A DNA stretch of 47,531 nt from a virus: positions 1-47,531 of the IMG/VR virus record IMGVR_UViG_3300046692_000064; one strand, written 5' to 3'. The notes beneath the pieces are model-generated. The model searched no databases. It saw only the letters and a list, made by a program, of their open reading frames with translations, and was not told the origin of the DNA. Each line of letters begins with the position of its first letter. Position 1 is the stretch's first letter. This document shows positions 29,719 to 44,474 of the stretch, piece after piece. The position numbers and the translations under genes are program-made.

Positions 29719-30248
29719 AGTGCCTCGCTTGATTTCATGCGATTCCTGAATTTCGGAAAGTCTATGTCGTAGTCGTCGATGATCCGGCGCAAAGTCCCGC
29801 TCCCGATGCCCATCTGCTTCTCCACCTGGTGGCGCGTCAAGCCTACATCGCGCAGGGCAGTGATGCGCTCGATCAGCTTGGCGTCATCGGATCGCGCATT
29901 GGGCTTGCCCATGGTGTCGGGAAGGAACTTGAATTCCTCGCGCTGCGCCATGGTCCACAACGTGGTTTGCGCCATCCCTACGGCTGCCGACACTTCGCGG
30001 CACGTCATGGTCTTGGCCATCTCCGCGATGAGTGCTGAGCGCTGTTTGCTGCGCTCCAGTCGAGCCCCGCGCTGATGGATGCCCTTCGGCTTTTTCTCGC
30101 CAGGCTCTGGATGCTTGCGCGGCGGCTTCGGCCTGAATTCGAAGCCGGCCACTTCTTCGACCTTCCCGCCTGATTGGAAGAAAGCGGCTTGCGCCGCCTC
30201 CAGTCGTGCCTGCCGGTGGGTGCTAATTAGGATCTGATTATCGATCAT
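29715..30248 (-). CDS. Helix-turn-helix DNA-binding protein, hypothetical
   Basis: The 177-residue protein has two helix-turn-helix-like units: MTCREVSAAVGMAQTTLWTMAQREEFKF (about residues 80-108) and DVGLTRHQVEKQMGIGSGTLRRIIDDYDI (about 133-161), joined by a charged linker, plus a Pro/Lys-rich segment (RPKPPRKHPEPGEKKPKG). It overlaps the exonuclease stop by 4 bases. It may regulate replication or recombination genes in this operon. Confidence 0.65.
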   Translation of the reverse strand: MIDNQILISTHRQARLEAAQAAFFQSGGKVEEVAGFEFRPKPPRKHPEPGEKKPKGIHQRGARLERSKQRSALIAEMAKTMTCREVSAAVGMAQTTLWTMAQREEFKFLPDTMGKPNARSDDAKLIERITALRDVGLTRHQVEKQMGIGSGTLRRIIDDYDIDFPKFRNRMKSSEAL

Positions 30249-30868
30249 GCCTCGATCCCCAGAACGCGATTCATGCGGTCTTCAAGGAGTTCATAGAAGG
30301 TCTTGGCGCGCTCGGCCATCTTGCGGATCATCGCCTCGTCGCGGTGAAGGCGCTTCACGAACAGCGGCATGCCAGGCCAGTAGCTGATGAAGTCGATCCA
30401 CTCTCGGCCCGAAATCCAGAGTCCACCCTGGCACTGGGCCAGGTGCTCTTTAGGCACTTCGCCGGACAGGATCAGATCAACCTGGTACTTGGGCAGCTTG
30501 GTCTTTATTTCATTCAGGCCGTCCGCTCCCACTAATGAATCCGGGCTATAGCCGCACCCGTGGTTAAGGATGATCGCCACTTGCTCGCACGAATGGTCGG
30601 TCTGCATCTCGTACAGGGCTCTGGCTTTAGGCTCCAGCTCGTGGCCGCGCTCAGTGTGACGATTACCGGTAAACGGATCAGCAATCTCCTGGGTGATGCG
30701 CTCGCCGATCAACGTGTTCATATAGGTGAAGGCCTCGGCGCCGAAACCTTCCTCACCCTTGCCATTCACCAGCAGCGCGCTCATGTTCGACATGGTTACA
30801 ATGCCCATGCGGATCGCCAACCATTCTTCGCTGCCCTGCTCCAGATCTTTGATGATTTGCATGGTCAT
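30245..30868 (-). CDS. YqaJ-like exonuclease
   Basis: The 207-residue protein has the YqaJ/lambda-exonuclease nuclease pattern: EEWLAIRMGIVTMSNMSAL, then GNRHTERGHELEPKARALYEMQT (with Glu in RGHELEPKAR near residue 77), YSPDSLVGADGLNEIKT (acidic Asp plus ExK) and CQGGLWISGREWIDFISYWPG. These are the conserved metal and catalytic residues. Paired with ERF it makes the single-strand annealing recombination system, resecting double-strand ends. Confidence 0.92.
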   Translation of the reverse strand: MTMQIIKDLEQGSEEWLAIRMGIVTMSNMSALLVNGKGEEGFGAEAFTYMNTLIGERITQEIADPFTGNRHTERGHELEPKARALYEMQTDHSCEQVAIILNHGCGYSPDSLVGADGLNEIKTKLPKYQVDLILSGEVPKEHLAQCQGGLWISGREWIDFISYWPGMPLFVKRLHRDEAMIRKMAERAKTFYELLEDRMNRVLGIEA

Positions 30869-31620
30869 TGTGCTGCTTCCTGTTTTTTGGCTTTGGAGAT
30901 GGAGTTGTTGAGGCCGGCAATTACGCCGTCAAGCGCGGACTTCGCAATCTGTCCAGGGTCGCCGTACATCTTTTCAAAGTTGGCGTGCACTGCAGCGCTG
31001 CACTTATCGAGAAGCGATTGAACTTGGCGGGCTTGCGCAGGGGTGATTAACTGCTCGCCCTGGTCCTTATAGCCATCGTTGTCGTTGTCGTCGCCGCTGG
31101 TGATGTTCAGCAGGGCGCACATCACATAACGCTTGCCGTAGGTAGTGGTCGATCCAACTTCTTGCACAGCGCTGCGCTGGGCGCCCTTATCCAGCGGCAA
31201 AATCATTTCAGTTTCTTCGCGGTGCCCAGCTTTGTGCATCAGAATCCCGATGATCTTTACGGCGCCGTCGTTGTTTTTCACCTTGAACGAAACGCCAAAT
31301 CCGTATTTGGCCATGACCGGGCGAATGGCGTAGTTGATATCGTCCAAGTCTGCATACATCTTCTTCGTGTGCGTGTTCTGGGTGCGCTTCTCAACCGAAG
31401 GCATGGCGCACTGCATTTCGGCAAAGGCAGCGTTGAACGCTTCCAGGGCGGTCTTGGCTTCCATCCGCTCTTGAAGGGCCATTAGGCGTTCAAGTTTTTC
31501 CATATCGCAGCGCGGATCGAGGGCGAGCCGGCTGATGGTGGCGAGCATGCTGATTTCTTGGTCTTGGTGCAGGGCGACTGACTGGGTTCGCTCTGGCGGC
31601 ATGATGATTTCTTGTGACAT
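30865..31620 (-). CDS. ERF-family single-strand annealing protein
   Basis: The 251-residue protein has the ERF signature: ALEAFNAAFAEMQCAMPSVEKR, YADLDDINYAIRPVMAKYGFGVSF, EETEMILPLDKGAQRSAVQEVGSTTTYGKRYVMCALLNI and a Asp/Asn-rich DDNDNDGYKD. It anneals complementary single strands during phage recombination and genome circularisation. The 4-base overlap with the exonuclease and the upstream DUF1351-like gene form a recombination operon. Confidence 0.93.
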   Translation of the reverse strand: MSQEIIMPPERTQSVALHQDQEISMLATISRLALDPRCDMEKLERLMALQERMEAKTALEAFNAAFAEMQCAMPSVEKRTQNTHTKKMYADLDDINYAIRPVMAKYGFGVSFKVKNNDGAVKIIGILMHKAGHREETEMILPLDKGAQRSAVQEVGSTTTYGKRYVMCALLNITSGDDNDNDGYKDQGEQLITPAQARQVQSLLDKCSAAVHANFEKMYGDPGQIAKSALDGVIAGLNNSISKAKKQEAAQ

Positions 31621-31630
31621 TGAAAATTCC

Positions 31631-32731
31631 TCAGAAGTTGATAACGATATTCGGAACTTCGCCGCGAGCGATCTTCAGGACGATGGCCTTGGCCAGTTCC
31701 TCGGATATGTTCATCGACATGATTGCTTCCTTCGCGGCGCCCAAGATCTTTGACTTGTGCGCCATGTCGGCCTGTCTGGCTTTCTGCTGGCGGATGATTT
31801 CGTCCGCTGCTGCCTCTTGCCGGGCTTGCTCATCTAGTCGAGCCTGCTCAACCGCTTGCTTCTCGCGTTCGATGGCTGCAAGCCGGTCCTGCTCTGCCTT
31901 TTGCTCGGCTTCGAGCTTCTCGCGCTTTGCCTGCTCGGCGCGGCGATCTGATTCCGCAGCCTGCAGCTTCAGATCGGCTTCGCGCTTCTCGGCGGCTGCC
32001 TGGTCGTCACGGGCTTTCTGCTCTTGCGCTTCACGATCGCGCTGCGCCTTTTCCTCGGCCTCGCGGGTGGCTTTCTCCGCGGCTTCGCGGGCAATGCGGT
32101 CTTCGCTGTCCTTCTTGTCGCGGGCTTCTTTCTCTTCGCGCAGCTTGGCCAGTTCGGCCTGCTCGGCGTCGTATGCCTCACGCTTCGCCAGCGCCGCGCC
32201 AAGCGCTTCGATTGCCTTGGCCTTGGCTCGGTGCGCCTCGGCTTCGAACTCTTCCCACTGCTCGCCAACGGTGATGGCTTCGACCTTGGCGATGCGGTCA
32301 GCCAGATCCTCGGCGGTGATGCCTTCCAGCGCTTCGGCGGATAGTTTCAGGCGGGCGATGGCGTCATTGTGCTTATCAACCCGCGCATCCTCGGCGGCCT
32401 GCCAGTCGTCCAGCGGCTTGCGCACTTCATCCTTCCACGCGTCGAGCAGGTCGCGCATCCGCTTACGCTCGGCATCGATCTTCTTCGGCACATCCTTCAG
32501 CTCGGCGACCAGCTCCTTGCCGATGTTGTCCAGTGCCGTTTTCGAGCGGGCAACGCTGTGGGCGATAGAGGCGATTGCCTGACGACCCTTGACGGTGGTG
32601 ATATCTGGTACAAACCCATCGATCTCTTCGCGGATCTTCGCCAGGTACGGATCAAGGCCGCTGGCCGCACTGAACACTGACAAGGCGTTTTCTTTCGATG
32701 GAACAACTGCAATTTCTGTTGCTTCTGACAT
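31631..32731 (-). CDS. DUF1351-like coiled-coil protein
   Basis: The 366-residue protein starts at ATG 32731 after GAAGGGAA; the longer ORF to 32833 lies inside a structured leader and is rejected. The N-terminal part has GLDPYLAKIREEIDGFVPDITTVKGRQAIASIAHSVARSKTAL and DAWKDEVRKPLDDWQAAED, as in the DUF1351 family that accompanies ERF/RecT genes. Residues 180-330 are an extremely charged coiled coil (many Ala, Glu, Lys, Arg). It may act as a scaffold or regulator of the recombination machinery. It is the first gene of the recombination operon. Confidence 0.8.
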   Translation of the reverse strand: MSEATEIAVVPSKENALSVFSAASGLDPYLAKIREEIDGFVPDITTVKGRQAIASIAHSVARSKTALDNIGKELVAELKDVPKKIDAERKRMRDLLDAWKDEVRKPLDDWQAAEDARVDKHNDAIARLKLSAEALEGITAEDLADRIAKVEAITVGEQWEEFEAEAHRAKAKAIEALGAALAKREAYDAEQAELAKLREEKEARDKKDSEDRIAREAAEKATREAEEKAQRDREAQEQKARDDQAAAEKREADLKLQAAESDRRAEQAKREKLEAEQKAEQDRLAAIEREKQAVEQARLDEQARQEAAADEIIRQQKARQADMAHKSKILGAAKEAIMSMNISEELAKAIVLKIARGEVPNIVINF

Positions 32732-32746
32732 TTCCCTTCTCCCACG

Positions 32747-32924
32747 AAAAAGCGCTTTGGGGTTGCCCGGTGGAACTCTGTGAATAACCTGGATCGACGG
32801 CTTGTCGGTCAGACACAGAACGGGCAACTCCAAAACGCTTTGATAGCCGTCGATCCTGATAATTTGCTTTAGCGTTCCACGGCCTTGGCGAGCTGAATAA
32901 TACCCTAAAACTTAACCTCAACAA
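32747..32924 (-). promoter_or_regulatory. Attenuator-like leader with promoter (copy E)
   Basis: Reading leftward: TTGTTG (32924-32919) and TATTAT (32902-32897) with 16-base spacing; a segment GGATCGACGGC (32856-32846); after 4 bases the long hairpin 32841-32821 with 32769-32749 (21 pairs, one G-U, one A-C mismatch); inner stem TCTGTG (32819-32814) with CACAGA (32782-32777); the 20-plus-base loop contains GCCGTCGATCC (32801-32791), a perfect 11-bp complement of the upstream segment. The hairpin ends in 5 Ts and then GTGGG ... GGGAAATG into the DUF1351 start. The two pairings cannot coexist, so this looks like a terminator/antiterminator switch. Confidence 0.65.
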
Positions 32925-35513: not shown

Positions 35514-35541
35514 TTGATTAACGCACAATGGCGGCTATACA
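35514..35541 (+). promoter_or_regulatory. Rightward early promoter (PR-like)
   Basis: TTGATT (35514-35519) and TATACA (35536-35541) with 16-base spacing, followed at once by AGAAGGAG and the Cro start at 35556. It stands back to back with the leftward promoter. TTAAC elements at 35475 and 35518 flank the two promoters. Confidence 0.65.
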
Positions 35542-35555
35542 GAAGGAGTGGCGAA

Positions 35556-35774
35556 ATGCTTAAAGAAGACGTGGTTGCCTTTTTCGGCAGCAAGAGAAAT
35601 ACGGCGATGGCGCTTGGCATTAGCAGGGCTGCAGTAACTCAGTGGGGCGATGTTGTGCCGGCCCCGCGCCAGGGGCACGTAAAACTGGCCATGGAGGCAG
35701 AATCAAAACGTCGCGCAGATGAGGCGACGAAAGAAACCAAGAAGGCCGCACGCAAAGCGCGACAGGCCGCATAG
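35556..35774 (+). CDS. cro: Cro-like repressor
   Basis: The 72-residue protein begins MLKEDVVAFFGSKRNTAMALGISRAAVTQWGDVVPAPRQ. NTAMALGISRAAVTQWG is a helix-turn-helix of Cro type, followed by a Lys/Arg/Ala-rich tail. ATG 35556 follows AGAAGGAG; the TTG at 35514 is inside the promoter and rejected. It is the first gene after the rightward promoter and is expected to bind operators between the divergent promoters. Its usual partner CI is not seen. Confidence 0.85.
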   Translation: MLKEDVVAFFGSKRNTAMALGISRAAVTQWGDVVPAPRQGHVKLAMEAESKRRADEATKETKKAARKARQAA

Positions 35775-43155: not shown

Positions 43156-43553
43156 GCCAATCATGCGAAAAGCACGCCGCCCTTCCAGTAGTCGGTCATT
43201 CCCCGTGCGCAGGGTTCGAGATAGAAAGACTGAAGGCCGAGGTTGAGCGCTATCGAAAGTACGGCTGCGATACCTGCGACGGTTCAGGCCACTTGCACCG
43301 GGCCGATGGTGAGTATTTCGGAGCATGCACGTCTTGCGGCGCGTATGAGCTGGAGCAGGCCAAGCGCGAATCTGAAGGTCTGCGGAAGGATGCTGAGCGT
43401 TATCGTCATCTGAGAGCATGCAACGGCGGATCACTGGTCATCACTCAGCTGTCATTTGACAAGGATGAGGAGCGAGAACTGGTCGAGGAAGAAGCAGATC
43501 AGGTAATCGACGCCGCCATGAGCAAAGACCCATTGGCCAATCCAGGCCAGTAG
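43152..43553 (+). CDS. Hypothetical protein with Cys clusters and coiled coil
   Basis: The 133-residue protein has SPCAGFEIERLKAEVERYRKYGCDTCDGSGHLH and FGACTSCGAYELEQAKRE; CDTCDGSG and CTSCG resemble the DnaJ-like zinc knuckle. The middle is a coiled coil. It ends VIDAAMSKDPLANPGQ. The last bases overlap the -35 region of copy B of the leader family. Confidence 0.6.
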   Translation: MSQSCEKHAALPVVGHSPCAGFEIERLKAEVERYRKYGCDTCDGSGHLHRADGEYFGACTSCGAYELEQAKRESEGLRKDAERYRHLRACNGGSLVITQLSFDKDEERELVEEEADQVIDAAMSKDPLANPGQ

Positions 43554-43715
43554 CGGTATGATGTGCGAACGGGAGTCGAAACCCGGCTGTAATGGATCGA
43601 GGGTTAACAAAGGTTTTGATTTGCACTGTTCCTGTTGGGTTGAGTTCCCCCTCGATCCAGACCCATCAGGATTTCGACCAGTGCAAATCAAAGCCTTTTT
43701 TTGTGGGCGTGAGAA
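43529..43715 (+). promoter_or_regulatory. Attenuator-like leader with promoter (copy B)
   Basis: TTGGCC (43533-43538) and TATGAT (43557-43562) lie 18 bases apart, followed by GTGCGAAC and a small hairpin. GGATCGAGGG (43594-43603) precedes a 20-bp hairpin, 43609-43628 with 43679-43698 (one G-U), which runs into seven Ts. Inside, CCTG and TGGGT (43631-43640) pair with ACCCA and CAGG (43661-43670), and the loop contains CCCTCGATCC (43649-43658), a perfect 10-bp complement to the upstream segment. With only 5 linker bases the two pairings exclude each other. GTGGGCGTGAGAAATG then leads into the antirepressor. Confidence 0.7.
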
Positions 43716-44474
43716 ATGAATTTATTGGTTGAAAGATCGGCAAGCATGACAAGTCTTGAGCTGGTCATGCTTATCAACAATCACAGAAAGGCTGAGGCTC
43801 GCAAGGTTGCGCGTCTTTTCCCGTCGAAGGGTTTTGCTCAGCTTGAGCACTCCGACTTTATGAAAAAAGTTGTCGAGGTTCTCGGGGAGAGTGCCGGAAA
43901 TTTTTCCGACACCTACATCCACCAGCAGAACGGACAAACTTACCCGTCCTATCGCTTCCCGAAGCGTGAAGCCTGCCTGATGGCAATGTCGTACAGCTAC
44001 GATCTGCAGGCGGCAGTATTTGACAGAATGACCGAGCTTGAAGAGGTGAAGGCGCCCGCACTGCCTAGGTCATTCGCCGACGCACTGCGCCTTGCTGCAG
44101 ATCAGGCTGAGCAGATCGAGCAGCAATCCCAGCAATTGGCTATCGCTGCGCCAAAGGTTGAATTCGTAGACCGTTACGTCGAATCGTCCGGCCTCAAGGG
44201 CTTCCGCCAAGTCGCCAAGCTGCTGGGCATCAAAGAGAACCTATTCCGGGCCTTCCTGGTCGAAAACAAGATTCAATACCAGATCAGTGGCGAGTGGGTT
44301 CCCTACGCCAACCACATCGACGCCGGCCGGTTTGAGGTGAAGACCGGGACTGCCGAGCACAACGATCACGCATTTACATCTGCCAAGTTTACCCCGCGAG
44401 GCATTGAATACGTCGCCCGCCTGCTGCGCGACTCAAAGAAAATAGAACCTGAAAAGGCCCTGAGTCATGGCTAA
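43716..44474 (+). CDS. Rha/KilAC antirepressor
   Basis: The 252-residue protein has an N-terminal Rha domain (LELVMLINNHRKAEARKVA, FMKKVVEVLGE, DTYIHQQNGQTYPSYRFPKREACLMAMSYSYDLQAAVFDRM), a helical linker, and a KilAC domain (KVEFVDRYVESSGLKGFRQVAKLLGIKENLFRAFLVENK, then FTPRGIEYVARLL). Such proteins bind DNA or a repressor and control the lytic switch. ATG 43716 has a weak ribosome site; ATG 43746 is possible. It follows copy B of the leader family, so its synthesis may be set by transcription attenuation. Confidence 0.88.
   Translation: MNLLVERSASMTSLELVMLINNHRKAEARKVARLFPSKGFAQLEHSDFMKKVVEVLGESAGNFSDTYIHQQNGQTYPSYRFPKREACLMAMSYSYDLQAAVFDRMTELEEVKAPALPRSFADALRLAADQAEQIEQQSQQLAIAAPKVEFVDRYVESSGLKGFRQVAKLLGIKENLFRAFLVENKIQYQISGEWVPYANHIDAGRFEVKTGTAEHNDHAFTSAKFTPRGIEYVARLLRDSKKIEPEKALSHG

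Follow-up and report, generated by a model that had tools for sequence, protein, structure and literature searches.

Organization of the locus

The window analyzed here, i.e. the whole stretch of 47,531 nucleotides from the IMG/VR virus record IMGVR_UViG_3300046692_000064, encodes an antirepressor with a KilAC/ANT domain. The region before this gene, between the replication and nin genes, carries the parts of a short structured RNA (copy 1), and a second copy lies on the opposite strand of the same genome (Table 1).

Table 1. Coordinates of the two RNA copies and of genes discussed in the text
Feature	Position	Strand	Description
Promoter-like pair, copy 1	43533-43562	+	TTGGCC (43533-43538) and TATGAT (43557-43562), 18-nt spacer; sequence, promoter scan
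5′ hairpin H1, copy 1	43570-43585	+	CGGG[AGTCGAAA]CCCG; loop presents segment a
Target segment a, copy 1	43575-43581	+	GTCGAAA
Target segment b, copy 1	43593-43603	+	TGGATCGAGGG; core GGATCGAGGG at 43594-43603
Terminator-like stem H2, 5′ arm, copy 1	43609-43628	+	
Inner stem, 5′ arm, copy 1	43631-43640	+	Folding, alignment
Antisense segment b′, copy 1	43649-43659	+	CCCTCGATCCA, apical loop; core CCCTCGATCC at 43649-43658
Inner stem, 3′ arm, copy 1	43661-43670	+	Folding, alignment
Antisense segment a′, copy 1	43672-43678	+	TTTCGAC
Terminator-like stem H2, 3′ arm, copy 1	43679-43698	+	
Seven-T run, copy 1	43696-43702	+	Likely RNA 3′ end; conserved in homologues
Antirepressor gene, behind copy 1	43716-44474	+	PF03374, phrog_63
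P22 Cro-like protein	35514-35774		
Promoter-like pair, copy 2	32897-32924	-	TTGTTG and TATTAT, 16-nt spacer
Full RNA, copy 2	32741-32881	-	Covariance model R1, E=3e-13; z = -4.9
Segment a, copy 2	32874-32880	-	Descriptor, alignment
Segment b, copy 2	32845-32856	-	Descriptor, alignment
Stem, copy 2	32821-32841/32749-32769	-	Descriptor, alignment
Segment b′, copy 2	32791-32802	-	Descriptor, alignment
Segment a′, copy 2	32770-32776	-	Descriptor, alignment
phrog_1376 protein of unknown function, behind copy 2	31631-32731	-	Profile match
ERF recombination gene, after phrog_1376 gene	30865-31620	leftward	
YqaJ gene, after phrog_1376 gene	30245-30868	leftward	

In copy 1, the promoter-like pair is followed by a, b, the 5′ arm of the stem, the inner stem holding b′ between its arms, a′, the 3′ arm of the stem and the T run. 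The 20-bp stem H2, which contains one G.U pair, its seven Ts and the 5-nt linker that separates it from b are as an earlier note on this DNA had described them, and the complementarity between b and the loop segment b′ proved to extend to 11 bp. That note had missed a second pairing, in which a is the exact complement of a′ in the 3′ half of the long hairpin, as well as the 5′ hairpin presenting a and the parallel with C4/CI antisense RNAs. The a:a′ pairing encloses b:b′ in a nested manner, and both long-range pairings cross the terminator stem. Folding of copy 1 gave z = -3.8, with none of 200 shuffles equally stable, and a structural descriptor had zero matches in control sequences. The arrangement is not due to chance.

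The two hexamers of the putative promoter are present as claimed, and the scan count is ordinary by itself (two overlapping sites versus 1.3 expected). A -10-like hexamer occurs 11-21 nt upstream of a in all members of the family described below, except the doubtful one in L144, and the sequences upstream that bear this recurring hexamer are of several unrelated kinds. Overlapping the promoter is the tail of the preceding ORF (43510-43553, ...MSKDPLANPGQ*), which relatives share even where the rest of their upstream genes are different; this suggests that modules have been exchanged here. A small upstream ORF overlapping the hairpin (43592-43732) was rejected, its version in the relative L009 stopping after four codons. 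Within the start of the antirepressor gene, an inverted repeat of 11 of 12 bp with a 7-nt spacer was observed at 43742-43772. The only other exact match of GGATCGAGGG in the window, at 31514 inside the ERF gene, is probably a chance occurrence.

Genes behind the RNA

A structure-only descriptor returned exactly two sites in the whole window, copy 1 and copy 2. The latter was found with the covariance model R1, which also revealed a further copy in L082. Copy 2 and L082 have GGATCGACGG/CCGTCGATCC as b:b′, differing from copy 1 by a compensated change, and their a:a′ reads GTGGAAC/GTTCCAC or GTTAGAC/GTCTAAC. According to short-duplex energies, a separates the two copies of the window more than b does.

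The RNA had been attributed to the antirepressor, the gene expected to decide lytic escape. This attribution is not supported: copy 2 precedes recombination genes, and in relatives the same leader stands before completely different genes. A scan of about 45 proteins recognised the antirepressor and the P22 Cro-like protein, but neither a CI-type repressor nor an integrase; a small unrecognised repressor may exist in this phage. The lysis-lysogeny reading is thus weak, because the downstream genes vary and neither a CI repressor nor an integrase was recognised.

Conservation by compensatory changes

The leader of L009, a relative found via its antirepressor, is 84% identical to copy 1, with stem changes that keep the pairing. 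Further homologues were collected by scanning IMG/VR for promoter and b-motif patterns, and eight leaders were aligned (alignment A2). In this alignment, 98.3% of the pair cells were standard pairs, versus at most 51% when the pairing was slid, and two-sided changes affected 9 of the 20 stem pairs, 2 of the 10 inner pairs and 3 of the 7 a:a′ pairs. The b:b′ pairing is invariant within A2, which is uninformative by itself because the set was partly chosen by its b motif; in copy 2 and other classes, b and b′ change together. The covariation in homologues that had been proposed as a check was therefore found, in the stem as well as in a:a′. These data support a conserved structured RNA, with a hairpin resembling an intrinsic terminator and a predicted alternative early fold.

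Regarding distribution, a search of 84,980 bacterial and archaeal genomes for the exact b..b′ motif gave 49 matches in taxa unrelated to Pseudomonas, with a T run nearby in only three, and these were read as chance inverted repeats. Comparison of copy 1 by blastn with isolated phages and plasmids returned nothing relevant. Three isolated phages that infect Pseudomonas syringae 7C, Orisa01-03, carry unannotated homologues of copy 2 with 80.7% identity. Their structure was confirmed for 01 and 03, and the Orisa01 homologue lies on the minus strand at about 36.57-36.72 kb of PP179329. Judging from these homologues, Pseudomonas is the likely host genus.

A family recovered by structure alone

The descriptor combined a T run, a preceding long stem, an exact 7-nt a:a′ match and b:b′ of at least 6 bp, plus either an H1 stem or a long b:b′. 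Applied to 2.03 Mb of phage DNA, it identified 22 sites, one or two of them doubtful, and no site in the reversed sequence or in five block shuffles. A version relaxed to 6 nt also recovered L005 and L072/L075. The wider set of 42 instances contains 15 different a strings and 16 different b strings; these correspond to about a dozen distinct a:a′/b:b′ classes, a count lowered because L144 and L153 minus are probably fortuitous and because certain b strings represent one sequence at different lengths. Together with these two, the weak matches in L044 and L180 were treated as chance, and an apparent exchange of b between L137 and L140 turned out to be the same b with one bulge. Among twelve named-phage loci (11 with antirepressor homologues and one with NinB), the strict descriptor found no member.

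The largest number of copies per phage was observed in the relative G005, with four, every a being different, and no examined record repeats an a among its copies. Of the 16 listed hairpin loops that display segment a, 15 have a UNR motif; these loops are not independent. In L004 (~2620-2700), a 10-nt complement GCATCCGGCA/TGCCGGATGC flanks a terminator-like hairpin before an antirepressor and is perhaps a further variant lacking b.

Two competing folds

Folding of nascent RNAs of increasing length revealed that, in most classes, the enforced a:a′ plus b:b′ fold is the best or near-best structure until ~8-15 nt of the 3′ arm are present. Once this arm is long enough, H2 wins by 12-20 kcal/mol in many classes. 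The computed energies are -37.8 kcal/mol for a:a′ plus b:b′ versus -55.0 kcal/mol for the terminator hairpin in copy 1, and -44.1 versus -58.7 kcal/mol in copy 2; early cis folding was weaker in L063 and L012.

The 5-nt linker does not prove that the crossing pairings exclude each other, because a pseudoknot is topologically possible. The energies do show two competing states, but the model ignores pseudoknots, so both pairings might coexist. When target and antisense were folded jointly there was no gain, loop-loop pairing being beyond what the program can score. In this energy model, the leader has the structural make-up of an attenuator, a predicted terminator with a competing earlier-forming fold, which agrees with the attenuator logic first suggested for this locus.

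Comparison with known regulatory RNAs

The C4/CI immunity RNAs are known from a few phages and have target, terminator and antisense as separate parts. Like C4 of P1/P7 and CI of P4 (RF01695) with the target c4-a1b1 (RF03163), the RNA described here has an upstream a1-b1 target with a in a hairpin loop, followed by a second hairpin loop that contains b′ and, further 3′ within the closing stem, by a′, and it is placed before an antirepressor or early operons. The seqA hairpin of P4, CGGG[CGTGAGAA]CCCG, has almost the same form as H1 of copy 1; it is followed by b1 (TTCACAGG), a terminator and the CI/C4 RNA with CCTGTGAA and TTCTCAC. The CI RNA of P4 has been reported to cause termination in trans, by pairing with seqA and seqC (PMC4825925). 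The pair GTGAGAA/TTCTCAC in L141 (5140) and L152 (3328) is identical to the seqA/CI RNA pair of P4 (L314), through ancestry or coincidence.

Several features nevertheless set the present RNA apart. No match to the Rfam C4 or c4-a1b1 models was obtained for copy 1 up to E 10, its matches at a relaxed cut-off being chance only, or for nine loci with other members up to E 2, whereas the P4 control scored 74.9 bits with the C4 model. Unlike in C4/CI, the antisense hairpin is itself the terminator-like hairpin, and the extra hairpin that the C4 model and P4 have between the 5′ arm of the closing stem and the b′ hairpin is absent. The RNA is not tied to one kind of gene, and several copies occur per genome. 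Pairing with a downstream a2-b2 target was no better than with swapped antisense segments across the 42 instances. In this window only, GTTGAAA then GATCGG in the first antirepressor codons (43728-43740) would be able to form 7 bp with a′, one of them G.U, and to pair with some of b′; this possible a2-b2 candidate is weak and does not rise above the control family-wide. Given the lack of an Rfam match, of a family-wide a2-b2 and of the extra hairpin, and an antisense hairpin that doubles as terminator, the family is not filed as a C4 member; it is a variant of the C4/CI-plus-a1-b1 design.

As in IsrK (RF01394), the leader would stop ahead of a phage regulatory operon, at an intrinsic terminator that it carries itself, and would have the readthrough mRNA as partner (PMC4825925). 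The IsrK covariance model matched neither copy 1 nor the nine loci with other members; it did match the P4 control (E=7e-12), in which the IsrK-like part is the seqA-terminator half only, apart from the antisense, whereas here both halves form one RNA. The pT181 attenuator is likewise a two-state leader with a 5′ sensing hairpin, which an antisense RNA biases towards the terminator (PMC4878617). In pT181, however, the anti-terminator works by sequestering the 5′ segment of the terminator stem, while the competing pairing here involves loop segments, and the proposed antisense here would be the terminated leader itself. In L029 (2450-2700), sRNA-Xcc1 (RF02221) occupies the same place before an antirepressor as the copy 1 RNA. 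It is flanked on both sides by CTGATAAC, complementary to the internal GTTATCAG; unlike in the window RNA, to which it has no sequence match, target and antisense are separate and a downstream target is present. In L018 (2450-2700), an Rfam C4 RNA likewise occupies this place before an antirepressor, with matching target hairpins (TTGACGT) upstream and downstream.

Proposed mechanism and alternatives

The close C4/CI parallel suggests that regulation may be exerted in trans by the product of the RNA itself, rather than by cis folding alone. We propose that each copy is an autonomous unit with a promoter, an RNA of ~130 nt and a terminator. The 5′ part, with a in the H1 loop and then b, would be the target, and the 3′ part, the H2 hairpin carrying b′ in the loop at its apex and a′ further on, would serve as both antisense and intrinsic terminator. 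As long as a nascent RNA on its own has yet to gain the 3′ arm of H2, its a and b would bind a′ and b′ in cis, delaying the terminator and allowing some polymerases to read into the gene behind. As the terminated RNA accumulates with b′ and a′ exposed, it could capture a and b of later nascent transcripts, freeing their H2 to fold and enforcing termination, so that the product would shut its own operon. The basis for the trans step is the analogy with P4, namely the same order of parts and the termination reportedly caused in trans by its CI RNA. Computation shows the structure, the two long-range pairings, the two-state energetics and the recurrence, and from these we infer, beyond the trans step, promoter activity, termination and the direction of regulation. 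We give this self-targeting, C4/CI-like attenuator a probability of about 0.5.

A purely cis-acting attenuator is rather unlikely, although the two-state energetics and the covariation are both explicable without a second molecule: competition between a/b and b′/a′ would set a readthrough that is fixed or depends on signals such as polymerase speed, a phage antiterminator or another protein, the terminated RNA having no role in trans. It leaves aside that a is displayed in a hairpin loop like seqA of P4, the target of a trans-acting RNA, and that a differs between copies of the same genome, a difference not needed for cis pairing. With C4 and CI RNAs as precedents, both of which work in trans on targets of their operon, H2 might also be a plain terminator releasing an antisense directed mainly at another transcript or a superinfecting phage, with the 5′ a/b segments only tuning its level or activity. 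This is improbable given that no second a/b target rose above control downstream and that the sole other exact match of b in the window is the probably fortuitous one in the ERF gene.

Similarly improbable is a stable pseudoknot, in which a:a′ and b:b′ would coexist with H2 and protect the transcript or bind a protein, without any switch. The topology permits it, with loops of ~20 nt between the arms, but a and b vary freely as long as they match, there is no conserved core, and the energetics describe two states. IsrK offers another precedent: this terminated leader RNA, from a prophage operon, has the mRNA produced by its own readthrough as its target (PMC4825925). This raises the question of whether the short RNA activates or represses translation of the readthrough mRNA instead of acting on termination; since no downstream pairing site close to the start codon exceeded the control and the IsrK model did not match, we regard this as very unlikely. 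Finally, short inverted repeats are common and the promoter scan does not by itself exceed chance, yet an ordinary terminator with chance complementarity is refuted by the covariation, and the zero control matches and about a dozen sequence classes of one architecture reduce its probability to almost nothing.

Implications

The RNA probably acts as an RNA-only on/off switch controlling sets of phage genes. More tentatively, and at somewhat less than even odds, some phages without recognised lysogeny genes may carry up to four mutually distinct self-targeting C4-like attenuators acting as RNA-only feedback timers, each for one early gene module and kept separate by their a:a′ loops. Since isolated phages with a copy are on record (Orisa01-03), the self-targeting model can be tested. 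If it is true, one short RNA would be target, antisense and terminator at once, showing how C4/CI-type RNAs multiply and diversify, and the phages with up to four copies bearing different loops would provide a naturally occurring collection of RNA-only attenuators that differ in their pairing loops.
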